A stretch of 23,661 bases of DNA from a virus. Each line of letters begins with the position of its first letter. Positions within the stretch are counted from its first letter, which is position 1. The translations under genes and the position numbers were made by a program. Below the pieces are notes generated by a model that worked only from the letters and a program-made list of their open reading frames with translations, had not been told where the DNA came from and did not search any database. Shown piece by piece: positions 7,201-23,344 of this stretch. The DNA lies in IMG/VR virus record IMGVR_UViG_3300012936_000170, positions 1 to 23,661 of that record; one strand, 5' to 3'.

Positions 7201-10200
7201 TATATTGATCCCACAATTATTGATGATACGTCATCACCCGCTTGTGATAATGTAAGGTCTGCTATCGATACTTTATCGTATCTATTCGTAGATGTTCTCG
7301 CTAACGATGCTTCTGGAACATATCTAGATGCTGCTTATCTAATTTCAAGAAATAGACATTACATTGCTGATGAAGCATACGAGAGTGCTAAACAGCAATA
7401 TCCTTCTCTTGCTCTCAGTAATATTGATGAGCGTAAGTGTCGTAGGGATGTCAATTATGTTTTAAATGGAGTTCTAAGAGACTTAGTTCTTGGTGGTAAT
7501 ACTGGTGCTGTAAGTGCTGCTGAATTGTATTACCAAGGAACTACTCTAACTGGAGTTCCTGTTTCCGAACTTGGTGCTACTAGATATACGTTCCAGAAAG
7601 TAAGAGATTTGTCTATCCAGGCAATGAGAAACTGGAAGACAGCTTCTGGATCTAGTGTAAGTGCTACCTATACTGATATTCCTCAGTTCACAGATAATAC
7701 TATTCTGGTTGATGCCAACGGCACACCTACAGCACAACTAACTCCAACAGATGCTACCTACGATCCTGCCAACGGCAATTTCGTAATGACATTTGCTAAT
7801 GCTCATAACGCAACTACAAATGATTCGATCCGATTAGACATCGAATCATTTGTATTTACATGTGCTATGGACAACAATAGGTCTGAGCACTATCTACCAG
7901 ATTCTGATCAACCAGCTGCCACATCACTCCTACCAATTACTGCTGTAACTACAAACACAATTACAGTCAATGTAGGTGCCTCTGGACCTAACGTATCATA
8001 TTCTGTTACTGGTGCTACTTACGATCCCGCTACTGGTGATTTCGTAATGACCATTGATGGTGATCATGATCTATCTTCTGGTGAAGGAATTTTACTTGCT
8101 GATAATGGATTTACATTTACATGTGACATGGATAACAACCAGTCATATAAACAGTATCCTAGACCTGGAATTGATCCTTTCTCTGGTAGATCCATTCAGA
8201 TCAAATCAACAACCACAGACACAATTACAATTAATGTAGGTGCTTCTGCTCCTAATAAGTATTTCACTCCATCTGCTGTTACATACAGTCCTTCTACAGG
8301 TGACATGACTGTCACTGTAGGTCAGCATGGTCTGGGTGTTGGACGTGGCGTTGTTCTTGCTGACAATTCATTCACATTCACTTGTGATCTGGATAATAAT
8401 CAGACCCAGCACACATATCCACGTCCTGGAACTGACCCATTTGCTGGTAAGTCTATTGCTATCACTTCTGTTGGTAATACGACACACTCACCATCTAATG
8501 CTGATTACGATCCAGCAGCAGGTACGCTAGACATCACTCTAGTCGGTCATGGTTTCTCCACTGGTGATTATATTAAGATCGATGATAATGCTATTACGTT
8601 CACATGTACTCTAGACAGTAATGTCACCCAGCATACGTATCCACGTTCCTATGAATATGCTAGTGGAAGATGGTTTGATATTACTGTAGTCGATCTTGAT
8701 ACTATTAGAATTAGTGGTTTACCAATTCCTAGAGATCAGTCTACACACACCTACGTAAGTTTTGCTCCTAATTCAGTACAGAGACAAGATGGTACGTTTA
8801 CTATTAACGTAGGTACATCATCTGACACCTCTACACACACGTTTGTAAGTGCTACTACCAATGCTATCAAGCATGAACCACAGTCAACACATACTTACGT
8901 TGCCTCATCTCCTGGTGTTATTCAACATCTCCCACAATCAACACACACATTTAAGCGTGTAACAGGAACCAACGTTGTTGGTGTTTATCCTAGTGGTGGT
9001 AGTGCCCCATGTGCTGATGTTGAAGCAACTCTAACAACGTCGTTTGCTTTGATCGATGGCATTCTAGAATACGCTGCCGACAATAATAGTTCATCTGCTA
9101 TCCAACCAGGATCCACAACAAAGACAACAGGAACTCTTTATACTGGTTCTAATGTAATTTCCTATCCAGATAATATTCTTCGAGATGCTAGTGGAAACTA
9201 CGTAACAATTCGTGCTGTATATGATGATCTACCAATTATCTCAGCATCTCCATATACTCAGAATGCTTCTATCATCTCTAAGATTGGTGGTAGCGGTGCT
9301 CTGGTCGATGGTTCTAAAGTTAAGAATCCTAACTGTCCTTTCCCTGGTCTGTCCGATGGTAAAGCAACCTTCCCGAATCAGGGTAAATCTATGGTTGCTT
9401 CGGCATTCACGATTGTTTCTGAAAAGAATGGTACTGGATATAAGATCATCGAAGATGGTTATGTTCAGTTAGTTTCTGTCTTCTGTATCTTTACCGTAGA
9501 TGGCATCCTTGCCGAAACAGGTGGATATGCTTCTGTTACCAACTCTGCTTCTAACTTCGGTACATTTGCTCTTAGAGCAACTGGATTTAGAAGAGAAGCA
9601 TACTCATTCGATGCTGGTTATGACGCTGCTCTAGGTTATCAAAGAGCATATATTGATGCTGTAAATGAGTCCGTTGCTGGTCTAACAGTCTTCACTGTTG
9701 ATAACTTAGGTAGAGCACCACTTGAGCATTACATTGTTAAGGTTGACGGACATGAAACTGGTGATCCAGATCTAGAATATTTCATCAATGAAGTTAAGGT
9801 TCTCCAAGAGGGTCCTCCATACAGAGCAGAAATTACTGTAACAGATGGTACTGGAGCATCAGTTATCGATCTGAACAACATATCAACTGGTTTAGCAGTG
9901 TCGCCATCAGCTCTTGATGGTTTGAACATCTCTCTACATAGACCATCTATTGTTAACTCTTCTTCTCACACGTTTGAATTTGTGGGATCTGGTACTGACT
10001 ATGATGCTCTACCAGAAAACGGTGGTATTAAGTTTGGTACTAACGAACAAGTATCACAAGACTACGGTAGAGTCTATGCTTCTGGTACTGACGAACTTGG
10101 TGACTTCAAAGTTGGTGACTTCGTTATCATTGAAAACAGAACTGGTAACATCCAGTTCAAGGGTACAGTTTCTATCTCGGAAGTTGACTTCCTGAAACTG

Positions 10201-13200
10201 AGTGGTGGTGACGTAACAATTACTGGTTTCAGTAAGTTGAACACTCTCGGTGGAACTGACGCTGATGACAAGACTCTACCTACACAAAAAGCAGTTAGAG
10301 ATTTTGTAATCAACAACCTTGGTCAATATATTGGCAAAGGATTTACTACCAACAGAGTTCCAAGAAACCTCGTAGAACTGAATGATCAGGGTCTGATTTC
10401 TGAATCTCAGTTACCAACTACAAGTCCAATTGAAGTTTATAGTGTAGCAAACGAACAGGAAAGACTAGCACTAGAAGGTGTTAGAGCTGGTGACATTGCT
10501 GTAGAAGCAGGAGAAGCATACATTCTCAATACAGATAATGACTCGTTGTTCTTAGGCATTACTGTAGATACAACATTACAATTTACTGTTAATGATATTT
10601 TCACTGGCAGTGTTACTGGTGGTAAGATTCAACTTACCGAATATAGACCTGGAGTAGTTAAGAGTATTATCATTCCTGAAAATGGTGGTGGATCTGGTTA
10701 CTCAACATCAAACCCACCAACCGTTGTTATTACAGACACGGGAACTTCACTAGGACATGTTGCTGCTGTGGCAGAAGCAGTCGTTGCTGGTGGCGAAGTT
10801 GTTGCTATTAATTTAGTCTCTTCTAATGGTTATATTGGTGGTCAAGGATATAACAGCGTTCCTACAATCTCATTCACAAACACCAGTGGTGGTAGCGGAG
10901 CACAAGCAGACGCTGAAATTGAATCTAGATTGTATGGTGATATTGTTAACAGCATCAAGATTGGTCCTAATGACTTTATCGAATCCAGTGATGTTCCTGC
11001 CGAAGACGTAGATATTATTAGAGTTATCAACACCTCTGCTTCTAATGATGCTAACTGGGTCTCACTGAACACAGGAACTATTTCTGCTGATGCTATTGTT
11101 GATGGTCCTATCCCAACCGACATTCTTGCTGACAACTCAGAATCAGCAAACTCTAATACATTCCTTGCTGGTGATCAATCGTATAAGAAGGTTGTAAAAT
11201 CACTACGTAATATTGAGAATAGATATTTCCTAAGAACGGCAACAAGTTCTGCTTCGGATACCATTCTGTTTGAAGTTAATGCTGAAAACAATACAGCTGC
11301 TTTAGTTGTTGGTCATTCTGTAGTTACTCAAACTGGTGTACAGGCAGGAACTACTATTGATCAAGTAGTATCAGTTACTGTTGGAACTACAAACTACGTA
11401 AGAATCACATTAAGTGATGGTCTAACTTCAACTATTGCTGCTGGTACTATCATTGAGTTCAGCAGACCCGACTCTCCTGTTAAGATTTCTTCGCTACTAA
11501 GAACAACTGGTTCTGTATCCGAAGTTCTAATTGTCAATGGAGGATCTGGATTTGCTGCCGATGCTACACCAGTTGCTGGTAATAAAGTTTATGGCAACAT
11601 TCCTGTATCAGGAGGATCTGGAGGTTCTGATTTAAGATTAGATATCACAGTAACTGGTGGAGTAGTTACTAACGTAGTTATTAACAACCCAGGGGTTGGT
11701 TTCAACGGAGACTTCCAAATCAATCCACCATCAGAAATTGGAACTGGTGGTTCTGGATTAATTCTCCAAGCAAAGATTACCAACGAACCAAAACTAGAAG
11801 GTGACATTACTATTGACATCGACAGAGCATCATCAGATACTTTGTCTGGAGATGAGTTTGGTACAGTTGGTGTTTCTAGATTTAAGAAATCTCAGTTTAT
11901 TCTAGGTGATAATGGTTCAGTACAAATTGATACTGGTATTGACTCTGGATTAGATGCTGACCTCCTAGATGGTAAACAAGGTAGTTTCTACAGAGACGCT
12001 GATAATATTAATGCTGGTAGACTAAAACCAGCATATCTATCTGGAGAATATACCATTGATATTACTGGAGAATCTGGTAATACCGCTACACTATCAGCAC
12101 AGTCTGGTTCTCTAACAAATGATTTAAATCCATCAGGTCTTCGTGCTGGTGCTACGGTTGCTGTAAGAAGAAATGATGCTAACCAACTATTAGATCCTCC
12201 AACAAAACCAGACCCACAAAACCCAACTGGAACTATCAGTACAGCATCTGATTACAATACTGTTCTATCTGTTAGAGGTGGTGGTACTGGTACTACGAAC
12301 CAATTTGGTGGTGTAGTTCAGGTTGCCTTTACTGATGGTAACAATCTTTATGTTAGAGGTAGTTCGGGTTCTGTTGTATCAGAACAAGCATGGAGTTCTT
12401 GGGGTAAGATCTGGTCTTCCCAGAATGATTATTCTGAAGACCCAGCAAACACTTCTGAAATTGCAGGACCAAATGCTTATCGTCTAAGAAATAGGACGGG
12501 TAAGTGGTACATGAATGCCAACACATTTACCTATGGAGATCTAAGTGACAGAAGGCTTCCAACATACCAAACCCAGAAAGATTTCAACACTAGACTAAGA
12601 ATTCTTGAGGATACTGGAACTGGCAAGAGATATGATATTTACATCGCTGAAGTATCAGCGTCTGTTATCAATGCTTTTGATAATTCTCCATTCACAGATA
12701 CTCCCCGTGACGTAAAACTACTAACTGCTTCTGGAGATGATCCTGGTCAGATTAGAGTATCACAAATCAAAGTATATAATATCGAAGGTGATGAAGTTGA
12801 TACCACACAGACCATTAGTGATTACACTGCTCTATACGCTATTGTATCTGGAACACTAAGCACTGGTGGCAACTTCACCTTTACTGATGCTTCTGGCGCT
12901 ACATTCCCAGCTGTAAACATTGGTGATGACACTGTACAAATTCCATTTGCTGACTACGGTCTTTCTGCTGTTGATGCCAATTCTGATGGAATGCCAGATG
13001 GTAACGTCGAAGCAATCCGTCTTGAGAGTATTGCTGGTGAATCTTTCCTCATCATGGGTAGAGAAGATGGTCAGCAGGGTAGTCAAACCACACCACAAAT
13101 TTGGTTTAGATCTTCTGCTACAACACCAACTGACACATCACTATGGTATAACTCTGGATTTAAAGCATCTGGTGGTAATGATAATAACGGTAGTGGATCT

Positions 13201-14811
13201 CTCGATGTTCTTGTAACAAGTCCAAATGCTTTCACCGTTGGTTCTAACATTGTTTGGAATGCTGGTAATACATTAATTACAGCAACCAATACTGGATCTA
13301 CATATACCCAAACTGGTGGAACATCCAACTTCGATAAACTCAATCCAGATCTCAACGTAGACATTCGTAGTCTCGTAATGAGAGATGAGGATGGAGACTT
13401 CTCTGCTAATGTAATTACTGCTGATCTTACTGGTACTGCTTCTGGCAACCTACCTATTAATGGTGGTATCCTACAGGGTGGTTTACAAATTGGAGACACC
13501 AATAGTGATGCTACGTTGGTTGTTTATGGTACATCAACATTCAATGGTGATGTAGACATTGTTGATAGTGGAGACTTAACAGTAAATACCACTACACTTA
13601 TTGCCGATGCTACAAATGATCGGGTAGGTATTGGAACATCTCCAGATTACAAATTAGATGTATATCAAAGAACCAATACTTCTGGTAGCAGCACTGGTAC
13701 TACTCTAGCTAGATTTACAAATGATGTAAGAGATTTCACAGACCCTGGTACTGGAGATCTCGTACAACAGAAAACGTTTATTGATTTCAACTTTGTAGAT
13801 CAAGATGGAAACGGCAATCCCCATGTAAGAATTGGTGCTGAAATTGGTGAGAATGGTGACGCTAACAATAGAAATAAAGAAGGATCTGGTGCCTTTGTTG
13901 TTTACACAGCAGCAGGAACCAGTATTAGTACAAATACTATATCCGAAAAACTAAGAGTTGATTACAATGGTAATGTAGGTATCAACGAAACTAATCCATC
14001 ATACAAACTACATGTTGGAGGCACTGGTTACTTTGATACTACTTTAACGGTTGTTGATGGCATTTACTTAGGTAACGTTGGCAACAATGACAATGCTCCA
14101 TTGTTCTTCGATGGTGCTACTACTGGTGCTGATGGAACTACTAGAGGTCCAGATGGTGGTGGTGGAACTATTACTGGTTACTCAAGTAACTTCCGAGTTG
14201 GTAATGGAATTATTGGTGGTGACATCTTTGAAATTACTGCTACGGATAACACTACTATCAATAGTGCTCCTAATAATGGTACTGATAAGAGAGTTTATAA
14301 ATCAACTCCAGCACTTTCGATTGAAGGTACTACAAATAGAGTTGGTATTAATACCACAACATTCCAAGGAACTGATAACAGTGGTTCTACAGCAGTTGAA
14401 AGGTATTATTCATTAAATGTTCAAGGAGACATGAACCTCAATGGTCAGTTCTTCCAGAACAATGAAGAGTTTGTTACTTCCAGATGGACAGAAGCAAGCA
14501 ACCAACTAGACATTTATAGGATGTCTAAAGTTGGTATAAATAAAGCAGACCCGTCTGCTACTCTTCACATTGATGGAGATGTAAATATTGAGGGCACTAC
14601 CTTAACGAATGGATCAAATGCCAATGTCCTATATGCCAATGGACAGAAGCAATGGATTGACTCTTATGGTCTGTTCAAAGCGAATGGAAACACTGCTACT
14701 GAAAGTATCACTGTTCCAGCTAATACAAACTGTGGTAGTTTTGGTCCAATCACAATTCAAGATACAGTAGTAATCACTATTGCTGACGGCGGTACATGGA
14801 GTATTATCTAA
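4270..14811 (+). CDS. Giant modular tail-fibre/adhesin-type structural protein, 3513 residues
   Basis: One uninterrupted frame of 10.5 kb starts at the ATG at 4270. Rough module order by residue: Gly-turn repeats (GIGY, GDGY; 70-130); first part of a beta-helix (294-500); two helical modules marked by CRRDV (892 and 1057); four beta repeats of 76-87 residues (1161-1475); four short STHT(Y/F) repeats (1490-1565); the rest of the beta-helix (1650-1785); a domain with 'GDFKVGDFVII' (about 1950); Gly-rich segments (2140-2510); an 'LLDGKQGSFYRDADNINAG' segment (about 2565); and VGI(G/N) fibre repeats (3120-3450). The C-terminus ends 'VVITIADGGTWSII'. VGIGT repeats often precede a self-cleaving S74 chaperone, but none is present. 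It has its own putative late promoter. A role in host contact or as a long fibre is inferred from this architecture; receptor and location are unknown. Confidence 0.82.
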   Translation: MSFQFNSDREQLRGVDSTIIGSGSVRIRSGSGIEEREIFQAKVDAVSGLPRVGINRTGRRVDAISVDTQGIGYTSQPSVNLSAPTLPGGIQAIASASTDNFGRITGIQVDNPGDGYEFPPTIEITGGGGNGGSATAFLDTIDFELDVNGAIRTSTSIISDTANILNLDINNLVTPDVKLRTPDLKTWANGTGTRFPTNTQVNKDAYYWEGNNIYQMLNSGVTDILPPFHDDGTELNGTVQVKHIGFRVDSVTLPYYGETGESGFFPRSITPLLGDRSSKVATTEYVLNLATNDVGGRIYVSEQIGNDNNDGRSPVNPVRTIKRACQLAWTTPGVKESIIVAGGEYNEDNPISIPPDASVVGDNLRLVIIRPINKNKHIFKFGDKNYVIGVTYQDQVNASGASVGTWDFAMVFDDKQRVTYDIAANGDFGTNFPVGHQFFGNESFSALFNSNLTGLDQLSAGIQIFGVNSQATGTIGEVVFDSTDLSDPDRYKTGRLNNIVKTAGESFNNSESFFYGGTGTFKWEPNTDYVVGNVVWTDAVLPDQSLTAYVYTVTTAGTSGTSAPTHGAGTATNGTVDFQFTRGAYIFNATELESTTPEGEVVFTNKEYEISDDLPIQLIDFTKEGTFTDGFQNEIYGSAEDLGGIVFYTNQLDGASNIHDFKEGEEIEISGMPTNSPDLSFFNGKHRIYKVIEDADGRSRRFVLPKKVPTSLGLQLEDAWDPGSVGATPSVRTFSKSVTLSLLNSPNKFPVAQPVARRYQDACLQIRNNIDFIADEVVRKVNDQFKQEYFFAFDIGAGGGNDFKIYLGTSRFDHTYVSGGTVTNGGVTYNVTNFDYDFDTTGCATITLDSAPAFSEDDTILLAGLTVSCVIDGVTTQKVYPSYSIPISDAKCRRDVGHFLNALIQDLEFGSNYNIINAAKRYYSAGQIDYVDYEIIQTVRAIEYARELAIYAMRKWRTGTGLAGEPVYVPQYSSLDQYIDPTIIDDTSSPACDNVRSAIDTLSYLFVDVLANDASGTYLDAAYLISRNRHYIADEAYESAKQQYPSLALSNIDERKCRRDVNYVLNGVLRDLVLGGNTGAVSAAELYYQGTTLTGVPVSELGATRYTFQKVRDLSIQAMRNWKTASGSSVSATYTDIPQFTDNTILVDANGTPTAQLTPTDATYDPANGNFVMTFANAHNATTNDSIRLDIESFVFTCAMDNNRSEHYLPDSDQPAATSLLPITAVTTNTITVNVGASGPNVSYSVTGATYDPATGDFVMTIDGDHDLSSGEGILLADNGFTFTCDMDNNQSYKQYPRPGIDPFSGRSIQIKSTTTDTITINVGASAPNKYFTPSAVTYSPSTGDMTVTVGQHGLGVGRGVVLADNSFTFTCDLDNNQTQHTYPRPGTDPFAGKSIAITSVGNTTHSPSNADYDPAAGTLDITLVGHGFSTGDYIKIDDNAITFTCTLDSNVTQHTYPRSYEYASGRWFDITVVDLDTIRISGLPIPRDQSTHTYVSFAPNSVQRQDGTFTINVGTSSDTSTHTFVSATTNAIKHEPQSTHTYVASSPGVIQHLPQSTHTFKRVTGTNVVGVYPSGGSAPCADVEATLTTSFALIDGILEYAADNNSSSAIQPGSTTKTTGTLYTGSNVISYPDNILRDASGNYVTIRAVYDDLPIISASPYTQNASIISKIGGSGALVDGSKVKNPNCPFPGLSDGKATFPNQGKSMVASAFTIVSEKNGTGYKIIEDGYVQLVSVFCIFTVDGILAETGGYASVTNSASNFGTFALRATGFRREAYSFDAGYDAALGYQRAYIDAVNESVAGLTVFTVDNLGRAPLEHYIVKVDGHETGDPDLEYFINEVKVLQEGPPYRAEITVTDGTGASVIDLNNISTGLAVSPSALDGLNISLHRPSIVNSSSHTFEFVGSGTDYDALPENGGIKFGTNEQVSQDYGRVYASGTDELGDFKVGDFVIIENRTGNIQFKGTVSISEVDFLKLSGGDVTITGFSKLNTLGGTDADDKTLPTQKAVRDFVINNLGQYIGKGFTTNRVPRNLVELNDQGLISESQLPTTSPIEVYSVANEQERLALEGVRAGDIAVEAGEAYILNTDNDSLFLGITVDTTLQFTVNDIFTGSVTGGKIQLTEYRPGVVKSIIIPENGGGSGYSTSNPPTVVITDTGTSLGHVAAVAEAVVAGGEVVAINLVSSNGYIGGQGYNSVPTISFTNTSGGSGAQADAEIESRLYGDIVNSIKIGPNDFIESSDVPAEDVDIIRVINTSASNDANWVSLNTGTISADAIVDGPIPTDILADNSESANSNTFLAGDQSYKKVVKSLRNIENRYFLRTATSSASDTILFEVNAENNTAALVVGHSVVTQTGVQAGTTIDQVVSVTVGTTNYVRITLSDGLTSTIAAGTIIEFSRPDSPVKISSLLRTTGSVSEVLIVNGGSGFAADATPVAGNKVYGNIPVSGGSGGSDLRLDITVTGGVVTNVVINNPGVGFNGDFQINPPSEIGTGGSGLILQAKITNEPKLEGDITIDIDRASSDTLSGDEFGTVGVSRFKKSQFILGDNGSVQIDTGIDSGLDADLLDGKQGSFYRDADNINAGRLKPAYLSGEYTIDITGESGNTATLSAQSGSLTNDLNPSGLRAGATVAVRRNDANQLLDPPTKPDPQNPTGTISTASDYNTVLSVRGGGTGTTNQFGGVVQVAFTDGNNLYVRGSSGSVVSEQAWSSWGKIWSSQNDYSEDPANTSEIAGPNAYRLRNRTGKWYMNANTFTYGDLSDRRLPTYQTQKDFNTRLRILEDTGTGKRYDIYIAEVSASVINAFDNSPFTDTPRDVKLLTASGDDPGQIRVSQIKVYNIEGDEVDTTQTISDYTALYAIVSGTLSTGGNFTFTDASGATFPAVNIGDDTVQIPFADYGLSAVDANSDGMPDGNVEAIRLESIAGESFLIMGREDGQQGSQTTPQIWFRSSATTPTDTSLWYNSGFKASGGNDNNGSGSLDVLVTSPNAFTVGSNIVWNAGNTLITATNTGSTYTQTGGTSNFDKLNPDLNVDIRSLVMRDEDGDFSANVITADLTGTASGNLPINGGILQGGLQIGDTNSDATLVVYGTSTFNGDVDIVDSGDLTVNTTTLIADATNDRVGIGTSPDYKLDVYQRTNTSGSSTGTTLARFTNDVRDFTDPGTGDLVQQKTFIDFNFVDQDGNGNPHVRIGAEIGENGDANNRNKEGSGAFVVYTAAGTSISTNTISEKLRVDYNGNVGINETNPSYKLHVGGTGYFDTTLTVVDGIYLGNVGNNDNAPLFFDGATTGADGTTRGPDGGGGTITGYSSNFRVGNGIIGGDIFEITATDNTTINSAPNNGTDKRVYKSTPALSIEGTTNRVGINTTTFQGTDNSGSTAVERYYSLNVQGDMNLNGQFFQNNEEFVTSRWTEASNQLDIYRMSKVGINKADPSATLHIDGDVNIEGTTLTNGSNANVLYANGQKQWIDSYGLFKANGNTATESITVPANTNCGSFGPITIQDTVVITIADGGTWSII
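6541..7650 (+). repeat. Two helical modules marked by CRRDV
   Basis: Module A has 'RNNIDFIADEV' (about 6568), then 'CRRDVGHFLNALIQDLEFG' (from 6943), then 'AMRKWRTG'. Module B has 'CDNVRSAIDTL' (from 7243), 'RNRHYIADEAY', 'CRRDVNYVLNGVLRDLVLG' (from 7438), then 'AMRNWKTA'. The leading 'C..V......T' helix is seen again alone near 9010. The two halves of module A are separated by about 300 bases of unrelated beta sequence. These are rare alpha-helical islands in a beta-rich fibre. Confidence 0.65.
7750..8690 (+). repeat. Four beta repeats of 76-87 residues, with a degenerate fifth upstream
   Basis: Units begin near 7750, 8011, 8272 and 8500. Each reads 'a.YdPa.G...(M/V/I)T', then 'G.(G/D).I.L....FTC..D.N....(Y/T)YP', then a strand such as 'TITVNVGAS'. 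The 'FTC.(M/L)D.N' motif is the best marker. A weaker copy, with 'SEDDTILLAG' and 'VSCVIDG', is found at about 6800-6918 inside helical module A. The repeats are clear in protein but only moderately similar in DNA. Confidence 0.7.
8736..8960 (+). repeat. Four short STHT(Y/F) repeats
   Basis: Four spaced copies of 'STHT(Y/F)' occur at about 8739, 8829, 8883 and 8939, the first three followed by 'V.(F/S/A)....N.(V/I)'-like strands. Spacing is 18-30 residues. The matching DNA includes recurrent 'tcwacacayac' stretches. They form the exit of the preceding repeat array. Confidence 0.6.
13621..14577 (+). repeat. VGI(G/N) fibre repeats near the C-terminus
   Basis: Units with 'RVGIGTSPDYKLDV' (from 13624), 'NVGINETNPSYKLHV' (from about 13972), 'RVGINTTTF' (about 14338) and 'KVGINKADPSATLHI' (about 14527) recur, separated by variable beta sequence. 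This pattern is common near the distal end of phage fibres, often before an S74 peptidase. Here the gene ends shortly afterwards with a different short domain. Confidence 0.7.
14535..14542 (+). promoter_or_regulatory. Possible internal late promoter (TATAAATA)
   Basis: An exact TATAAATA, the classic T4 late promoter core, lies inside the giant fibre gene about 270 bases before the next start. It encodes part of a conserved repeat, so codon choice alone could explain it. It could give extra transcription of the small genes downstream. Confidence 0.25.
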
Positions 14812-15866: not shown

Positions 15867-17234
15867 ATGGCATCCAGAATAAAAGTCACTGATATTACTA
15901 CCATTACGGGTACTGGTTCGGTCAATATCGAAGTTGGATTGGGTGTGACTGGCGACCTGAACTTTACAGGAAGTCTACTTAAGAATGGGTTACCTTTTGC
16001 TTCCTTACCCGATCAGTCTGTATCTACTATGGGTGCTATGTTGATGTCCGATGGACAATCAGCTTTCTGGGCACACCCAACTACTTTTGAAGATACGGGA
16101 ACGTCAACAGCATACCCTGGTGGTACTGCTGATACTGGAGGTATTAACTTACAGAACCCTGTAGTTCCTGAATCTGGATATCTACCGTTCTCTGGTACTG
16201 GAACGTGGATTGACAACCAAGGAAATCAATATCAAGTAACTATCGGATCTGAATTTAAATATAGAAGTATCTTTACTCACGGATTCCTTTGTGGTGGATA
16301 TAGAGGATCTAATCCTTGGAGAACAGTTAACCAAACTTATCATGCTACCGACGTTACCGTATGTCGTGGTGACCAGTTAGACCGAGCAGCATCGTATGTT
16401 GATGGAAACTTTGGTGACTATAACGGATATGTTTATGGTACAGCAAACTCTTACTCTGGATCAAGTAACCACACAGCATCTATTAACCTCCACACTGGAA
16501 CAAGTAGAGGACTAGGTGTTGATAGCACATATGGACATAGTGATGGTTACTCTACCACTCCAGATGATATTGGTGCTTCTTGGGATGGTTGGTCTTCTAT
16601 TGATGACTGTGGTTCTACATCTGGTCAGCAAGTACAAAGAGGATACACCACTGGTGGTGGAGACTGGGGTAGTTCTAAGTGGGGTAGAATGAACTTCCAC
16701 TCAGAAATTATGTCTAGAGTTTCTGGTGGTCACACAAATAACTATGTAAGTGCTACCGAAGGTGAGATCCGAGGATATGCTTTCGGTGATACATCTAATT
16801 CCCAGTACATCGAATTTGCTACAGAGACTACAGGATCTTGGTCTACTACTGATCTAGCAGGTGACGGATGGAAGAAGTCACTATCCACAAAGTGGAACTT
16901 TGGATATCATGGTAATGGTGGTAACAACACCCAGCAGTGGATGAAGTTCACCCATAACACTGGAACTAAGATCAGTACATTTAACCAATCTGATGTATCT
17001 TCTGGTGAAGAAAATATGTCCATGGGTCAAGACTGGGGTTACATGTTAGGTAACTACACTGGTACTGGTGGTTCTGGTAATGCCAGACAGACTAATAGAA
17101 CTGCTAAATTATTCCACGCTACTGATTCGTTTGTTCTTATGGGATTCAAGACGGAACCAAAAGGACACCAGGGACAATCTTCTGGAGCATGTCACTCCGC
17201 TTCGTTTACTGTAACAGCAACTAGGTATCAGTGA
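15867..17234 (+). CDS. Gly/Ser/Tyr-rich virion structural protein, 455 residues
   Basis: The ATG at 15867 follows a putative late promoter. Residues 1-70 ('SRIKVTDITTITGTGSVNIEV', 'FAHP'-like end) form an N-terminal strand segment like those at the base of other fibres. The rest is rich in Gly, Ser, Tyr, Trp and His. Two segments look related: 'FLCGGYRGS...' ending in 'YHATD' (140-162), and 'YMLGNYTGT...' ending in 'FHATD' (392-420). A middle 'RGYAFGDTSN' may be a third. The repeated G-Y-x-x-G and HATD text suggests a blade-like or propeller-like fold, but that is inference. The stop overlaps the next start (TGATG). It is probably a surface-exposed virion protein; its location is unknown. Confidence 0.68.
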   Translation: MASRIKVTDITTITGTGSVNIEVGLGVTGDLNFTGSLLKNGLPFASLPDQSVSTMGAMLMSDGQSAFWAHPTTFEDTGTSTAYPGGTADTGGINLQNPVVPESGYLPFSGTGTWIDNQGNQYQVTIGSEFKYRSIFTHGFLCGGYRGSNPWRTVNQTYHATDVTVCRGDQLDRAASYVDGNFGDYNGYVYGTANSYSGSSNHTASINLHTGTSRGLGVDSTYGHSDGYSTTPDDIGASWDGWSSIDDCGSTSGQQVQRGYTTGGGDWGSSKWGRMNFHSEIMSRVSGGHTNNYVSATEGEIRGYAFGDTSNSQYIEFATETTGSWSTTDLAGDGWKKSLSTKWNFGYHGNGGNNTQQWMKFTHNTGTKISTFNQSDVSSGEENMSMGQDWGYMLGNYTGTGGSGNARQTNRTAKLFHATDSFVLMGFKTEPKGHQGQSSGACHSASFTVTATRYQ

Positions 17235-18169
17235 TGAAAACAAAAAGAAATTTTATAGAAGAAAGAGATTTTGTAGTAGAATGGCAATCTAAAATTCCAT
17301 CACATATGGTGGAAGAGAAGGATCTTCTACGTCCGAAGTATGAACCACAGCATCCTCTAGAACTAGAAACTAGAAAATTTATTAACAGCGATGAAGAGGT
17401 ACAGAAAGGTGTAGTTCATATGGCACTCACCGCTGAAGATTTAAAAGCTTTAGATATTCCACCTCACGAAACAACTTACCTTATTCACGAAAACTTCTTT
17501 AATATCCAGACTATTACAATGCAGTATGAGATTTTTTCTAATCTCAAGTCAGGATTAAAACGTTATGTAGAGTTTACAGAAGACGAAGTTCGTGCTGGAC
17601 AAAGATTCGCTCATGAAATTAGAGGACATCATAAAGAGTATGTCGGTGAGATGAATGATAAAGGAAAGATTGTTTTTGAGAAAAAGAAATTACCAATGAC
17701 CGAAAAGAAGATAGCTAACGCTGTCTCTTTTATGAAAAAGATTTCTATCTTGGTTGTTGAGAGAGAATTTGAATTAAGATTTAAAAACTTCAAGAACTGC
17801 CATGATGTAGAAAGTGAGTCATGGGCGTATCAATTACCAGAAGCAAAAGCAGCGTTAAAAAATCCTGATGCTGAAACTCCATTTTTAAATATCCTTGCTA
17901 TTACCAGAGGCATACCAAAAGATATTCTGGTTAAAAAGGTTATTGAGAAACATGATAAATATGTATTAGATTATGCTGCCCTATTAGGGAAGTATCATGC
18001 CATCAAATCACAATTTAAAAACTGTGATAACATGTGGGATATGAACATTTTGTATGAAGATTATTTCCATATTGGTATGCCATCTGCTCAAGGTATCGCT
18101 ATGGGCAGAATGGATGAACATCAAACTAGATTAAATGGAGAACTTAAATATGGAACCTTTGGATTCTGA
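17234..18169 (+). CDS. Helical protein with DUF4376-like (tail-fibre assembly) segment, 311 residues
   Basis: The ATG at 17234 overlaps the previous stop (TGATG), preferred over GTG at 17231. The protein is soluble, Lys/Glu-rich and mostly helical. Residues 191-262 have the order 'ESESWAYQLPEAKA', then 'TPFLNILAITRGIP', then 'LVKKVIEKHDKYVLDYAALLG'. This matches the DUF4376-type domain (E-x-x-S-W-x-x-Q-x-x-E-A ... P-x-L ... R-G) found in phage tail-fibre assembly and fibre-tip proteins. The N-terminal 180 residues I do not recognise. Its place directly after fibre genes fits an assembly or chaperone role. The domain assignment is moderate and the function is inference. Confidence 0.6.
   Translation: MKTKRNFIEERDFVVEWQSKIPSHMVEEKDLLRPKYEPQHPLELETRKFINSDEEVQKGVVHMALTAEDLKALDIPPHETTYLIHENFFNIQTITMQYEIFSNLKSGLKRYVEFTEDEVRAGQRFAHEIRGHHKEYVGEMNDKGKIVFEKKKLPMTEKKIANAVSFMKKISILVVEREFELRFKNFKNCHDVESESWAYQLPEAKAALKNPDAETPFLNILAITRGIPKDILVKKVIEKHDKYVLDYAALLGKYHAIKSQFKNCDNMWDMNILYEDYFHIGMPSAQGIAMGRMDEHQTRLNGELKYGTFGF
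18137..18140 (+). promoter_or_regulatory. Ribosome binding site favouring the start at 18150
   Basis: GGAG lies 9 bases before the ATG at 18150. The in-frame ATG at 18135 overlaps this site and has no ribosome site of its own, so the later start is preferred. Confidence 0.5.
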
Positions 18170-18956
18170 TGCTATTGTAAAACGATCAGATTTAGATAAC
18201 AGTAGTATTATTGAAGCGTCTCTCAATTTACAAGGTGGACAAACTAAGTATCAGAATACCGCTTTCGTAGTCGGTTCTCAGTTGACTCCATTTATGAAAA
18301 TGAAGCAGGCTTTGATGGAGTTGGAAACTAGAAATCATGGTTTCACAGAGTTACAGTATAGAATTAAACTCTGTAAGAATAAAATTAAAAAGTTAGAAAG
18401 ATCTATTGAGTGGGAAAAAGATCCACTAGAAATAGAGAATCTCGAAATTGAATTAGAGAAAGCTTTCTACGACTTAACTATTTTTGAAAGAAAGGAAGAA
18501 TCTTTCGAGCAAGAGATTCAAGATTTTTGTGACATCGTTAGAGATCTTAAAGATCCAGACATCCCTCTTCTAGATTACCTTGAAGTCAGTGAGGAAGAAG
18601 ATCGTAAGTATTGGATTACTCGTATGGCAAAACAGTCTGCTGTTGACATGCATACGCTAGGCAGGATTGGTAGTGGCAACTTGGATTCTATATTACAAAT
18701 GCCACCCGAAGATCAGTTACTAGCTATACAAGGTGCTGTAGAACATGCTACAATGTTGACTGCTGGTGTAGATAAATTAACACAGCAGTTACTTCCAGAA
18801 GTTAGAAATCTTTTGGAATCGGATGAGTTTAAAGTTCCCCAATTAAAATCATTTGATAGACCACAAACTCCATCATTGCCCGAGGTGATTAACGATGAAA
18901 CAAATGCTCCAAAAGAAAAATTCCGTCTTCAGTCTTCCGATAAATCCGAAGCTTGA
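18150..18956 (+). CDS. Coiled-coil protein of unknown function, 268 residues
   Basis: I prefer the ATG at 18150 because of the GGAG 9 bases upstream; the alternative at 18135 would add five residues. It overlaps the previous gene by 20 bases and the next by 62. Residues about 50-130 are rich in Lys, Glu and Leu with heptad-like spacing and should form a coiled coil. A conserved-looking segment follows: 'WITRMAKQSAVDM', then 'LGRIGSGNLDSILQMPPEDQ' (155-190). The tail (about 230-268) is Pro-, Lys- and Ser-rich and probably unfolded. No catalytic motif, signal or membrane segment is seen. It sits between a fibre-assembly-like gene and enzymes. I do not recognise its function. Confidence 0.65.
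   Translation: MEPLDSDAIVKRSDLDNSSIIEASLNLQGGQTKYQNTAFVVGSQLTPFMKMKQALMELETRNHGFTELQYRIKLCKNKIKKLERSIEWEKDPLEIENLEIELEKAFYDLTIFERKEESFEQEIQDFCDIVRDLKDPDIPLLDYLEVSEEEDRKYWITRMAKQSAVDMHTLGRIGSGNLDSILQMPPEDQLLAIQGAVEHATMLTAGVDKLTQQLLPEVRNLLESDEFKVPQLKSFDRPQTPSLPEVINDETNAPKEKFRLQSSDKSEA
18882..18888 (+). promoter_or_regulatory. Strong ribosome binding site (GAGGTGA) for the start at 18895
   Basis: GAGGTGA lies inside the end of the preceding gene, and its GAGG core is 9 bases before the ATG at 18895. It is the best ribosome site in the window. It explains how the large enzyme can be made despite a 62-base overlap, and it fixes the start. Confidence 0.65.
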
Positions 18957-20631
18957 GAAAGTATTTGTTGACTCGTATCTAATTCCTTGGTTGTGTGCTC
19001 ATAGGAATTACATTAGGGATTTATATTTTACTTGTAGAATGCCGCCTTTCACTCAGGATGCTATGGGTGATGTATTTGATGGCGACACGAGACAACTAGT
19101 TTTTAATGCTCAGGTTATTTCAAGAGAGACAGAGATTCCTTTGTCTGCTACTTTTAATAACATATATGTTAGACCAGATCAAGATAACCTAGATTTGTTT
19201 ATCTATAATTTCCGTCCACTATACGAGATGGGAATTAAGATTGCTACAATTCCACACACTACCTGGGTATCTTCTGGTCAAATTCAAGCAGCTTTTCCAG
19301 ATCTACAAATCAAGAATACTATTCTTAGAAATGTAACCAAACCAAATGATATTGTATCTCTTGCTAAAGCAGGATTCCATTACATTAACCTTGATAGAGA
19401 TATGATGAGAGACCGTGATGGTCTCAAGAAAGTAATAAAAGCAAGAGAACATTGTGCTGCTATTGGTAAACCAGTAGAGTTATCTCTCCTTGCTAATGAA
19501 GGTTGTTGGGGTGGATGTTCTATTATGGATGAGCATTATCACTTCAATAATACAAGAGAAGGGAAGTCTCCCCAATTCTTCATGGATCCTATCAGCACCA
19601 ATTCTTGTCAGAAATGGGATATTGAAGATCCATCCGCTTCTTTAAAAGCAGCAAATCTCCCGCCATGGCGTGAAGATTGGAATGAGTTTTTAGATTTAGG
19701 TATTGATGTTTTCAAACTACATGGTAGAGAAAATGCCCTGAGGTTGAAAGAGTCTATGGATATTATCGAACGTTGGAGCAGGGAGGATGAACTTCTATTC
19801 CCAGAGTTTGATGAGTACATGGAAGACTTGGCAGTCAAAGATGCTCCTATCAATCTTTGGAGAAAGAAAATCAAGACATGTAATTTTGATTGTTGGGATT
19901 GTAACTACTGTGAAAATGTAGTGGATGCACATCTCAAGAAGCAAGGTGATGTATATGAGGTTGAGGATTATACACAAAGAACTTTAGATGCTATTGATGA
20001 TGCTCTATGTTATAGATCTAATTTTAAAATAGAAAATTATGCTCCACGTGGTTTAACTTCTGCTAGGGTTCAGCACTTCCTAAACAATCTGTGCTCATAT
20101 GATGATTCAGTTTACCTTGAGTTGGGTACTTACATGGGTGGCACATTCTTTGCCGCTATGATGGGTCACAAGAACAAGTGTTTTGGTGTTGACGATTTCT
20201 CAGAATTGGATATCAAACCAATGATGCAGCATGTCAACTGGACTGAAATTGGTAATCCACTTGAGGTGTTCCAACAAAACTTTGAACGTCACGAAAATGG
20301 TAACACCACCTTTATTGGATCAAGTGTTCAACAATTGAATGAGGATGATTTTGAAGGGTACAAACCTAATGTGGTTTTCTATGATGCCAACCATGATTAT
20401 GTGGAGCAACTAAATAATTTAAATCACCTCGTTCCTTTCTTAGCAGACAAGTTTATTCTTGTTGTTGATGATGCTAACTTCGATGGCGTTATTGAATCTG
20501 CTGTTCAATTCGTCAAAGACAATAACTTTACAATCTATTTTGAAAGAAAAATCTTGAGTAAAATTATTGAGAACCAATCACATTGGTGGAATGGATTATT
20601 CATTATGGTCTTAGAAAAAAATGAGTCTTAA
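18895..20631 (+). CDS. Two-domain enzyme: U32-like Cys-bearing barrel fused to class I SAM methyltransferase, 578 residues
   Basis: The start is fixed by the GAGGTGA ribosome site. Residues about 70-300 resemble the barrel domain of peptidase U32 proteins: 'LSATFNNIYVRPD' (84-96), 'YEMGIKIATIP' (110-120), 'LAKAGFHYINLDRD' (156-169), then 'LLANEGCWGGCSI' (198-210). U32 members such as UbiU, UbiV, TrhP and RlhA hold a 4Fe-4S cluster and support oxygen-independent hydroxylation. Candidate ligands are Cys204, Cys208 and Cys238 plus a cluster at 329, 333, 336 and 339. Spacing differs from UbiU, so the assignment is distant. Residues about 400-575 form a class I methyltransferase: SAM loop 'YLELGTYMGGT' (407-417), acidic 'GVDDF' (431-435), 'VFYDANHDY' (494-502) and 'VVDDANFD' (523-530), similar to Methyltransf_24. 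The methyltransferase half is confident; the U32 half is moderate. The substrate is unknown. Confidence 0.7.
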   Translation: MKQMLQKKNSVFSLPINPKLEKVFVDSYLIPWLCAHRNYIRDLYFTCRMPPFTQDAMGDVFDGDTRQLVFNAQVISRETEIPLSATFNNIYVRPDQDNLDLFIYNFRPLYEMGIKIATIPHTTWVSSGQIQAAFPDLQIKNTILRNVTKPNDIVSLAKAGFHYINLDRDMMRDRDGLKKVIKAREHCAAIGKPVELSLLANEGCWGGCSIMDEHYHFNNTREGKSPQFFMDPISTNSCQKWDIEDPSASLKAANLPPWREDWNEFLDLGIDVFKLHGRENALRLKESMDIIERWSREDELLFPEFDEYMEDLAVKDAPINLWRKKIKTCNFDCWDCNYCENVVDAHLKKQGDVYEVEDYTQRTLDAIDDALCYRSNFKIENYAPRGLTSARVQHFLNNLCSYDDSVYLELGTYMGGTFFAAMMGHKNKCFGVDDFSELDIKPMMQHVNWTEIGNPLEVFQQNFERHENGNTTFIGSSVQQLNEDDFEGYKPNVVFYDANHDYVEQLNNLNHLVPFLADKFILVVDDANFDGVIESAVQFVKDNNFTIYFERKILSKIIENQSHWWNGLFIMVLEKNES

Positions 20632-21277
20632 ACCTTTATTTGTTTTACCGATTGGTGTATATGATTACCCAAGACACCAAGAATTTAAAGAGGTAGTTAC
20701 TAATCACATCATAGAAAATACTGACAAGTTATATGTAGATGACGTTAATATCGATCATCTATATAATCTAGAACATCAAAGTTTCTTTAGAGATGTTGAT
20801 CATCCAGAAGTAAAAGAACTGAGAGATTTTATTATAAGAAGATGTGATGATTACATCAAAGAAGTATTTGGATATACTAGATACGAAAATCTTTTAATTA
20901 CTAATAGTTGGTTGAACATTGGTTCCGATGATTGTTTTCTAGGGTTTCATCATCACGGGTGTGCTATGGTAGCAGCAAATTACTTTGTTAATTTTAATCC
21001 AGAATTACATTCACATTTGTCATTCGCTAATCCATTTTATCCCAACACACCCATGCCTAAGTTGAGTCCATGGGTTGATAACCCATCTCCATTTTCTACG
21101 CTATCAAATACTCCCCAACAGAGAGAAGGTCAAATATTAATCTGGCCAGCAGGATTAGATCATGGATATGAAAGTAAAAATACCACAGCAAATAGAGTAA
21201 CTCTTTCTATGAACATAGTTCCGAACAGAGTAAACACAGGACCATATGAAGTCACAATTTCGGAGTGTACAAAATGA
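20621..21277 (+). CDS. 2OG-Fe(II) oxygenase superfamily protein (TIGR02466-like), 218 residues
   Basis: The ATG at 20621 overlaps the previous gene by 11 bases. The protein has the layout of TIGR02466-type putative 2-oxoglutarate/Fe(II) oxygenases: an N-terminal 'FVLPIGVYDYP', central 'TNSWLNI' (94-100), a His-rich strand 'FHHHGCAMVAANYFVN' (109-124), then 'GQILIWPAGLDHGYE' (170-184) and 'NRVTLSMNIVP' (191-201). Probable iron ligands are His110 or His112 with distal His181; Arg192 is positioned to bind 2-oxoglutarate. The usual HxD is replaced by His-rich text. Length is normal. Such enzymes typically hydroxylate a protein side chain or small molecule; here the substrate is unknown. Confidence 0.72.
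   Translation: MSLKPLFVLPIGVYDYPRHQEFKEVVTNHIIENTDKLYVDDVNIDHLYNLEHQSFFRDVDHPEVKELRDFIIRRCDDYIKEVFGYTRYENLLITNSWLNIGSDDCFLGFHHHGCAMVAANYFVNFNPELHSHLSFANPFYPNTPMPKLSPWVDNPSPFSTLSNTPQQREGQILIWPAGLDHGYESKNTTANRVTLSMNIVPNRVNTGPYEVTISECTK
21262..21265 (+). promoter_or_regulatory. Ribosome binding site fixing the start at 21274
   Basis: GGAG lies 8 bases before the ATG at 21274, which overlaps the preceding stop as ATGA. This rules against an in-frame GTG at 21265 that overlaps the site itself. Confidence 0.6.
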
Positions 21278-21984
21278 AAGTAGTTAATGAAGAATTATTT
21301 GCAGTTAACCCATCTACTGCTTGGGATGTCCAGAAAAAACATATCGGACATCATAAAAATAGGATTATCATTGTAAGAAATTTTTTCAGAAATCCATTAG
21401 ATGTTAAACTGTTTGCTCAATCAACTGAGTATGCTTCTACACTCAATGGAGAGTACACTAACTTACCTGGGTTTATTCACAACATTGGTATTTTTAGAAA
21501 AATTTTATATCAACCATACTTTTATATTTGTAAGCATTACTTTGAAGGAAGCAATGAAGTAATGAAAGCACCTGATCATTGTAGATTTACTTTTCAAATT
21601 TATGATATAAAAGAGAAGTGTAGATTCTCAAGTTTATATCCACACACAGATGATATGAGATATGCTTCTGTGCTTTCTTTAAATCAAGAAGATGAATATG
21701 ATGGTGATAACAATGGCACGGCTTTCTATAGAAGTGTAGAGACTAATGAAGAGTATATCTCATATGATAAAAACTACCGAGCAGCAAGACTACAGAATGC
21801 CACCCAAGCTCTAGTTAATTTTGATCCGTCTAAAGTTAAATATAAAGAGTGGGAACGTTATCACGTAGAACCACAAGAATTTAATTCTCTCATTGTGTAC
21901 GAAGGAAACCTATGGCATAGTTTATACTTTGAACAAGAGAAATGGAGAACGAATAGAATGACATTCAATGGATTCATTAGATGA
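21274..21984 (+). CDS. DUF6445-like 2OG-Fe(II) oxygenase superfamily protein, 236 residues
   Basis: The start ATG overlaps the previous stop (ATGA), with GGAG 8 bases upstream. The central text 'YPHTDDMRYASVLSLN' (122-137), then 'GTAFYRS' (148-154), then 'LIVYEGNLWHS' (206-216), then 'NRMTFNGFI' (227-235) follows the DUF6445 pattern, a branch of the 2OG/Fe(II) oxygenase fold (family name recalled, not searched). The metal triad would be His124, Asp126 and His215, with Arg228 for 2-oxoglutarate. All are present, so it is likely active. The N-terminal third ('IIIVRNFF.NPLDV') is the usual helical lead-in. No substrate can be read from the sequence. It differs clearly in sequence from its oxygenase neighbours, so this is not a recent tandem duplication. 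Confidence 0.7.
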   Translation: MKVVNEELFAVNPSTAWDVQKKHIGHHKNRIIIVRNFFRNPLDVKLFAQSTEYASTLNGEYTNLPGFIHNIGIFRKILYQPYFYICKHYFEGSNEVMKAPDHCRFTFQIYDIKEKCRFSSLYPHTDDMRYASVLSLNQEDEYDGDNNGTAFYRSVETNEEYISYDKNYRAARLQNATQALVNFDPSKVKYKEWERYHVEPQEFNSLIVYEGNLWHSLYFEQEKWRTNRMTFNGFIR

Positions 21985-22577
21985 TCAATATTGATATCAT
22001 CCCAGCTTTCCCACATTTGTTGATGAAGTTTAATCTTCCTGATTATTCTTTCAGGAACGATTTAATTAACTACGTTTACGAACAAAAAGAAATTAATCCT
22101 ACTGGTGTATCTAAATCAAACAACGGTGGATGGCAGTCGGATACAATAAACAATCTTCCCATAAAATTCCAGGAAAAGTTGTTTCCTGTAGTTGGTACAT
22201 GTTTAGATGATTACTTAAAAGATGGGTTGACATGTAGTATTGGAAATCTTTGGTTGAATATAAATCCGCCAGGATCTTGTAATGATCGTCACACTCATCC
22301 AGGGGCAGATCTCTCTGCTGTTTTTTGGGTGAAGACTTCAAAGGAATCTGGAATGATTGAGTTTGAAAACCCTTCTCATTTCGTAGCGTTCAAACTTATC
22401 AACTCTAGTAATAGTGAACACAAAGATCCCTACAACGTTAGCAATTCTATGTGGGTAGAACCAGACGAAGGTTGTGTAATGGTTTTCCCATCTTACATGC
22501 TTCATAGAGTAATGCCAAATGAAACAGAAGAAGATCGTATTTCCATTTCATGGAACATGACTATCGTTAATAAATAA
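21981..22577 (+). CDS. 2OG-Fe(II) oxygenase superfamily protein (TIGR02466-like), 198 residues
   Basis: The ATG overlaps the previous stop (ATGA). The order is 'IGNLWLNINPPGS' (87-99), 'DRHTHPGADLSAVFWVKTS' (102-120), 'SGMIEFENPS' (123-132), 'PDEGCVMVFPSYMLHRVMPN' (161-180) and 'EEDRISISWNM' (183-193). This is the TIGR02466 plan: a His-rich strand followed by G-x-I-x-F-x-(D/N)-P, a distal His, and Arg in 'RISISWN'. Probable residues are His104, His106 and His175 with Arg186. As in the 218-residue paralogue there is HxH instead of HxD. A late promoter overlaps its stop codon. Likely activity is hydroxylation of an unknown target. Confidence 0.75.
   Translation: MINIDIIPAFPHLLMKFNLPDYSFRNDLINYVYEQKEINPTGVSKSNNGGWQSDTINNLPIKFQEKLFPVVGTCLDDYLKDGLTCSIGNLWLNINPPGSCNDRHTHPGADLSAVFWVKTSKESGMIEFENPSHFVAFKLINSSNSEHKDPYNVSNSMWVEPDEGCVMVFPSYMLHRVMPNETEEDRISISWNMTIVNK
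22570..22576 (+). promoter_or_regulatory. Putative T4-type late promoter (ATAAATA) overlapping a stop codon
   Basis: ATAAATA spans the last codons of the preceding oxygenase gene and overlaps its TAA stop. It lies 28 bases before the ATG at 22605, in a gap of 27 bases. It would drive the small coiled-coil gene and the oxygenases after it. Confidence 0.6.
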
Positions 22578-22604
22578 TAATACACACTATCATTTTTGAT
22601 TACC

Positions 22605-22796
22605 ATGGACACTGAACAACTCAAGAAAAATTTTGACGAGCAACTTGCTAACACAGAAAAGCAGATTGCTGAGTTGGAAGCTAACCTTGCTAAAGCAAAA
22701 GAATATAAAATTAAACTACAAGGTGGTCTAGAAACTTTAGATCTGTTGAATCCACCAGAAGAAAAAGAAGAAGAAGAAACTGCTTCTGCTGAGTAA
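22605..22796 (+). CDS. Small acidic coiled-coil protein, 63 residues
   Basis: I chose the ATG at 22605 over an in-frame TTG at 22596; no clear ribosome site precedes either. The protein is almost wholly helical: 'TEQLKKNFDEQLANTEKQI' and 'AELEANLAKAKEYKIKLQGG' show heptad-like Leu/Ile/Ala spacing, which suggests a dimeric or trimeric coiled coil over residues 3-45. The tail is strongly acidic (a run of Glu around residues 52-58). It has no enzyme motif. The stop overlaps the next ATG (TAATG), so it is translationally linked to the following oxygenase. Small proteins of this sort are common in cyanophage genomes. The function is unknown. Confidence 0.65.
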   Translation: MDTEQLKKNFDEQLANTEKQIAELEANLAKAKEYKIKLQGGLETLDLLNPPEEKEEEETASAE

Positions 22797-23344
22797 TGGC
22801 ATATGAAGCGGTCTGGTATAAGACTCAGTTACCTAAAGAAGTAATTGATATCTTTTTAGAAGATGATACTTTTGAAGATGATCTAGAACCTTCTACACTT
22901 AATGGTGAATTAAAAACAGATCTAGTAATTAGAAACAGTCACTCTTCATGGGTGAACAGTAATCATTGGATTGCTGGTTTTTGTTATCATTACGTATTGA
23001 AAGCAAACGAAGAAAATTTTAAGTATAAAATTAATTCTTTCGGAAAAAGATTCATTCAATATACTTCTTACGGAGAGGGTCAACACTATAGGTGGCATAC
23101 TGATAATGCATATGGTACACCCAATCCAAGAAAATTATCTTTTAGCGTACAACTTTCAAGTCCAGAAGACTACACTGGTGGACAACTAGAATTTTTAACT
23201 GACAACGATCATAGATTTATAGCACCCAAAGTTAGAGGTACTATAGTTGTATTTGATAGTAGAGTTAAACATAGAGTTAGAAAAATTACTTCTGGATGTA
23301 GGAAGTCTTTAGTCGGTTGGGTTGAGGGACCAGCATGGCAATAG
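22796..23344 (+). CDS. PKHD-type 2OG-Fe(II) hydroxylase, 182 residues
   Basis: The ATG overlaps the preceding stop (TAATG). This is the most canonical oxygenase in the group. Residues 86-103 'FIQYTSYGEGQHYRWHTD' give the HxD pair His101 and Asp103. 'YTGGQLEFL' (126-134) and 'GTIVVFDSRVKHRV' (148-161) supply distal His159, and 'CRKSLVGWVEGP' (168-179) supplies Arg169 for 2-oxoglutarate. The order and spacing match PKHD/PiuC-type hydroxylases and prolyl 4-hydroxylase-like enzymes. The length is slightly shorter than bacterial PiuC (about 225), lacking the C-terminal extension. It is likely an active iron- and 2-oxoglutarate-dependent hydroxylase. Cyanophages often carry one or more of these, with unproven targets. 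Confidence 0.88.
   Translation: MAYEAVWYKTQLPKEVIDIFLEDDTFEDDLEPSTLNGELKTDLVIRNSHSSWVNSNHWIAGFCYHYVLKANEENFKYKINSFGKRFIQYTSYGEGQHYRWHTDNAYGTPNPRKLSFSVQLSSPEDYTGGQLEFLTDNDHRFIAPKVRGTIVVFDSRVKHRVRKITSGCRKSLVGWVEGPAWQ

Follow-up and report, generated by a model that had tools for sequence, protein, structure and literature searches.

The window analysed in this study is a virus record of 23,661 bases whose relatives are T4-like cyanophages. The genes, domains and motifs considered here are given in Table 1. The gene that encodes the fusion runs from ATG to stop with zero internal stops, specifies 578 amino acids and overlaps g273 at its 5' end, as it does similarly in Syn19; the conserved stretch of the protein starts at residue 12. 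PHROG 1458 spans the whole fusion (E 3e-245), and at least 80% of the protein length was present in 123 of 50,697 phage records, all of them from cyanophages and many from near-identical S-RIM2/S-RIM12 isolates. The dN/dS ratio with respect to relatives at 94, 78, and 75% identity was 0.07-0.10, which indicates strong purifying selection. Given the number of records, the PHROG match and the dN/dS, the fusion is not due to chance, and the single intact frame with two domains that had been read from the letters in the original prediction is confirmed.

Table 1. Positions in the window of the fusion gene, its domains and motifs, and the three genes preceding it
Feature	Position	Strand	Evidence
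g455, putative cassette gene (phrog_1417; 'sericin 1 precursor-like' in Syn19)	15867..17234	+	123 phage records
g312, putative cassette gene (phrog_1604)	17231..18169	+	PHROG, locus comparison
g273, putative cassette gene (phrog_1409), 62-nt overlap with fusion ORF	18135..18956	+	123 phage records
Fusion ORF: U32-like Fe-S-type barrel + class I SAM methyltransferase	18895..20631	+	ORF call, Pfam, PHROG, phage-record search
U32-like domain, residues ~12-345: eight-stranded beta/alpha barrel + C-terminal Cys-rich extension	18928..19929	+	Profile comparison, model, Foldseek
N-E-G-C204-x3-C208 motif, just past barrel strand 7, site of the first two cysteines in canonical U32 proteins	19495..19518	+	37/37 homologues, RB69 type, bacterial homologues
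Invariant C238	19606..19608	+	Fusion family, bacterial homologues, RB69 type
C329-x3-C333-x2-C336-x2-C339 motif, likely to ligate an additional cluster	19879..19911	+	Invariant in fusion family; bacterial spacing identical
Class I SAM methyltransferase domain (Methyltransf_24), residues ~390-575	20062..20619	+	Pfam, Foldseek, alignment
SAM-binding motif I, E409-x-G411-x3-G415	20119..20139	+	Invariant in C-domain alignment
F-Y-D497 ... D525-D526-A527-N528, candidate metal/catalytic residues, aligned with D...DN region of YrrM/TrmR	20377..20478	+	Alignment

The original prediction knew of this fusion in no described phage system. The 123 cyanomyovirus records annotate it as hypothetical, and the search of phage records suggested at that time, cyanophages included, found it to be common and conserved. 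The family has already been sequenced and clustered, without annotation, as PHROG 1458 and T4-GC 354, and a literature search found no paper linking 'peptidase U32' to cyanophage. The N-terminal domain is encoded in at least 555 viral contig stretches, and the methyltransferase is present in nearly all full-length N-domain frames, with L071/L115 split into two frames. Standalone relatives of the N-domain were found in L099 and in L098; the latter is a phage-like fragment that also carries a dCTP deaminase gene. Two matches from genome collections (L096 and L097, the latter ending at the contig edge) have phage neighbours. The standalone seven-Cys U32-like gene of L099 (902-1999) lies on a Desulfocapsa MAG contig, with an RTX-like repeat gene on one side and a type I secretion-type ABC transporter gene on the other.

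In most loci with enough flanking sequence, the gene order was a giant tail-fibre gene, g455, g312, g273 and the fusion, followed by 2OG and/or DUF6445 genes; the distant loci L073-L080 keep the cassette in part, and in S-SM1 the stretch after the tail fibres has other genes and no fusion. Published virion protein lists do not bear on whether the fusion is packaged. The genes g455, g273, and the fusion each matched 123 phage records with an identical breakdown (77 Synechococcus, 38 Cyanophage, and 8 Prochlorococcus), an agreement of counts and not of accession lists. The distribution of g312 was similar, with additional weak matches in Helicobacter prophages. The equal counts are not a by-product of universal presence, because the core T4-like neck protein matched 378 Synechococcus and 61 Cyanophage records. 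Counts and breakdown point to g455, g312, g273 and the fusion being an inherited four-gene cassette of the tail region.

Some observations on the surrounding genes must be mentioned. At the tail-fibre position, the window carries a gene of 3513 codons (4270-14811) with zero Pfam match. Helicobacter prophage proteins (L180, 7632-8267) contain a counterpart of the C-terminal part of g312, which suggests a wider phage domain. Downstream of the fusion (20621-23344) lie further genes, several of them overlapping: two 2OG-FeII_Oxy_5 genes, a DUF6445 gene, annotated in relatives as 'minor coat protein', a small ORF and a 2OG-FeII_Oxy_3 gene. In addition, the name 'DNA endonuclease V' (denV) that neighbours carry in cyanophage records may be wrong (L081, 10716-11213; window, 21981-23344), since phrog_274, which bears the denV name, weakly matches the 2OG oxygenases of the window.

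The C-terminal part of the protein proved to be a complete class I methyltransferase, in agreement with its original placement at about residues 400-575. PF13578 (Methyltransf_24) matched residues 408-526 with 28.2 bits (gathering cut-off, 26.3) and also all 28 aligned homologous C-domains (E up to 0.1), in which the invariant residues include E409, G411, G415, D433, D497, D525, D526, N528 and the WNG at 565-567. With the C-terminal half of the full-length model, Foldseek returned COMT and a B. cereus O-methyltransferase, as well as METTL5 and other methyltransferases. The sole PDB sequence match below E 0.1 was YrrM (= TrmR), at a non-significant E of 0.033; the acidic residues align while the N falls in a different column. 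The domain resembles YrrM/TrmR and COMT-like O-methyltransferases in its class I fold, its Foldseek matches and, tentatively, its acidic/DN-type motif region, but not in significant sequence similarity, its Pfam family being Methyltransf_24.

The N-terminal half is modelled as a TIM barrel (residues ~12-280) continued by a Cys-rich extension to ~345. A Cys-bearing barrel had been anticipated at about 70-300; the barrel and its cysteines stand, and its true extent is longer. Direct searches gave little: PF01136 (Peptidase_U32) had zero match in the window protein or in the standalone L098 and L099 proteins, the PDB sequence search with the whole fusion or the N-domain found nothing, the NCBIfam subfamily models of TrhP/RlhA/UbiU/V did not match the window protein, and tblastn gave a weak match (E 6-10) to the 'peptidase U32' of T4-like coliphages. 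Profile comparison was more informative. The N-domain aligned over its whole length with the RB69-type phage U32 protein (probability 93-97%), which itself matches PF01136 (E 6e-11). When 297 genomes from a single phylum were searched with the N-domain profile, bacterial homologues were recovered, most of which share NEGCxxxC, the third Cys, RPED...K-x2-GR and CX3CX2CX2C; the full-length profile-profile match to seven-Cys proteins among them reached a probability of 99.5% (E 1e-22), against less than 1% for reversed and column-shuffled control profiles. Of seven such proteins, four match PF01136 (best E 1.2e-13), and their profile matches the solved U32 structure 5d88 (E 3e-15).

The N-domain model, built on 38 sequences (pLDDT 86.7, pTM 0.86), shows strands alternating with helices in a beta/alpha-barrel-like manner and the TIM-barrel fold of 5d88; in the full-length model confidence was low in the Cys loop 203-238, where the N-domain model with its broader alignment was better. 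Among the PDB matches listed by Foldseek, 5d88 had the top TM-score (TMt 0.70, rmsd 4.3), and among viral models the best match outside the fusion family was a coliphage 'peptidase' (E 2e-10, TMt 0.76). The link to U32 follows from homology to Pfam-U32-matching proteins, homology to the RB69-type protein and the closeness of 5d88 by TM-score, so that the relation originally described as distant and inferred is now on firmer ground.

Seven cysteines (C204, C208, C238, C329, C333, C336, and C339) were invariant in 37 of 37 non-redundant fusion homologues. All seven are kept in the bacterial relatives, with identical C-terminal spacing. The RB69 type keeps C204/C208 and has a C-terminal cluster C-x4-C-x3-C-x2-C; every cysteine of the fusion aligns with one of its own except C329, for which a nearby Cys substitutes. 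The invariant CX3CX2CX2C at 329-339 had gone unmentioned in the original prediction. According to the alignment, the NEGC motif comes past a late barrel strand, which would correspond to where U32 proteins have their first two cysteines. The characterised members of this superfamily use four cysteines (PMC6747719), and the fusion has CX3C...C...CX3CX2CX2C instead of the canonical CX6CX15CX3/4C. The N-domain is likely to carry one or two [4Fe-4S] clusters; it is a reasonable guess that C204/C208/C238 would hold one at the barrel mouth and CX3CX2CX2C a second. With its divergent spacing and three additional invariant cysteines, the N-domain, judged from its sequence, is not a canonical TrhP/RlhA/UbiU-type protein. 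We place it within the U32 superfamily as a distant, separate seven-cysteine branch outside the canonical subfamilies, on account of this spacing, from whose canonical form UbiV also deviates (PMC6747719).

Comparison with known systems shows which parts of the fusion have precedents. The RB69-type 'peptidase U32' (RB69 ORF050c homologue, phrog_5757; P0003) shares the barrel, NE-x-C...C, the third Cys, FK-x2-GR and the C-terminal Cys cluster, but it is a standalone protein without methyltransferase, has longer Cys loops and is encoded in the DNA arabinosylation region. The bacterial seven-Cys proteins (L164, L166, L169-L173), in spite of their cysteines, are only ~22% identical to the N-domain and also lack the methyltransferase; their neighbours (molybdopterin hydroxylase-like, AMP-ligase and radical-SAM MoaA-like) are too varied for a substrate to be named. 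Another unusual U32 fusion was seen in the bacterial genome L175, where a 906-aa frame combines a radical-SAM-like N-terminal part with a seven-Cys U32-like domain. TrhP/YegQ and RlhA, which act in C5-hydroxylation of tRNA and rRNA, have a U32 barrel with cysteines past the same strand and a partner methyltransferase in TrmR, but they are separate proteins with the canonical spacing and no reported C-terminal CX3CX2CX2C (PMC6599085, PMC6747719). Both are required for prephenate-dependent RNA hydroxylation, TrmR methylates ho5U34, the product of TrhP, and trhP1, trhP2 and trmR are adjacent in a B. subtilis operon (PMC6599085). UbiU/V are U32 members with proven [4Fe-4S] clusters required for O2-independent ubiquinone hydroxylation; they differ from the fusion in Cys spacing and in being an unfused heterodimer (PMC6747719).

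Since the fusion joins the same two kinds of domain as the trhP-trmR operon, hydroxylation followed by O-methylation is the simplest reading, and we give about an even chance to its being a bifunctional cyanophage enzyme of this type. The seven-Cys U32 branch, with its predicted [4Fe-4S] clusters, would insert an oxygen atom into the substrate without O2, and the Methyltransf_24/COMT-like domain would then move the SAM methyl onto the new hydroxyl, leaving a methoxy product. One chain would do the work of TrhP1/TrhP2 and TrmR (ho5U to mo5U), or of UbiU/UbiV and UbiG, which are separate proteins. UbiG methylates ubiquinone intermediates, the product of UbiU/UbiV included.

It must be considered that, with this non-canonical arrangement of cysteines, the chemistry may differ from that of the characterised hydroxylases. 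The barrel might carry out another redox reaction or a rearrangement, or act in a radical-SAM-like manner through C329-x3-C333-x2-C336, with the methyltransferase acting on an unrelated site. Seven cysteines against four in characterised U32 enzymes, and the presence of CX3CX2C spacing, agree with this; however, the motif sits past the barrel and not past strand 1, and fold and profile favour U32, which makes it possible but somewhat unlikely. Membership of the Radical SAM family itself was considered and rejected, the motif lying only past the barrel and Pfam Radical_SAM having zero match. An unrelated TIM barrel that came to resemble U32 by convergence is a very improbable reading of the N-terminal half, given that, although the window protein lacks a Pfam U32 match of its own and Foldseek lists MTHFR (TM ~0.5, rmsd 8 to 9) and other barrels alongside, 5d88 is the better fit in both measures, the full-length profile match stands well above its controls and all seven cysteines are common to Pfam-U32 proteins; the different fold that the original prediction had named as grounds for abandoning it was not found.

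With regard to the substrate of the proposed hydroxylation and O-methylation, the cassette suggests that it would be made with, or act on, the adjoining tail-fibre-region products. A virion component, with the modification falling on an amino acid or a sugar of some product of this region (for example g455) and tuning host attachment, is a plausible candidate, although we rate it below an even chance. The matching record counts against those of the core gene, the constant order behind the giant tail-fibre gene, the different genes behind the S-SM1 tail fibres and the adjoining 2OG-Fe(II) oxygenases speak for it. On the other side, the linkage may merely reflect common transfer, the near-identical isolates weigh on counts that were matched only as counts, and action on protein or glycan is not known to us for any characterised U32 protein.

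RNA is a rather unlikely substrate. The fusion would then produce, within a single chain, 5-methoxyuridine or a related base on tRNA or rRNA of the host or the phage, in line with the TrhP/RlhA and TrmR precedent and with YrrM/TrmR as the best PDB sequence match of the methyltransferase, but that match is weak, the TrhP/RlhA models are unmatched and the gene is located in a tail-fibre cassette. Improbable as well is DNA or a nucleotide, with a modified base serving, for example, against restriction. The dCTP deaminase gene near the standalone relative of L098 and the location of the RB69-type relatives would fit, but the fusion lies in the tail region and not among DNA-metabolism genes, and no reported role for the RB69-like U32 gene was found in the literature. 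In two RB69-like coliphages (L083, 2404-3579; L084, 3410-4579), this related-branch gene lies between sugar-nucleotide genes and a thymidylate-synthase-like gene, in the arabinosyl-hydroxycytosine region. The 5-hydroxycytosine of RB69-like phages is credited to the thymidylate-synthase homologue and not to the U32 protein (PMC13390438), so that this relative, the only one from a phage whose pathway is known, gives hydroxylation no direct support.

Carried furthest, the bifunctional reading describes a phage 'methoxylase', a single polypeptide that would use its Fe-S barrel to hydroxylate the adhesin of the phage itself, without O2, at an amino acid or sugar, and would then O-methylate that amino acid or sugar. 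We consider this version doubtful; if true, it would be the first U32 enzyme acting beyond RNA and quinones and a new viral route for decorating the attachment apparatus. To our knowledge, U32 proteins are one of the few known routes of O2-free hydroxylation, and their mechanism is unsolved. The built-in SAM partner would offer a handle on this chemistry, since the methyltransferase should cap the hydroxylated product, leaving a methoxy mark detectable by MS. For PHROG 1458 / T4-GC 354, unannotated in 123 cyanomyovirus records, the analysis provides a likely function and links it to two unexplained neighbour genes.
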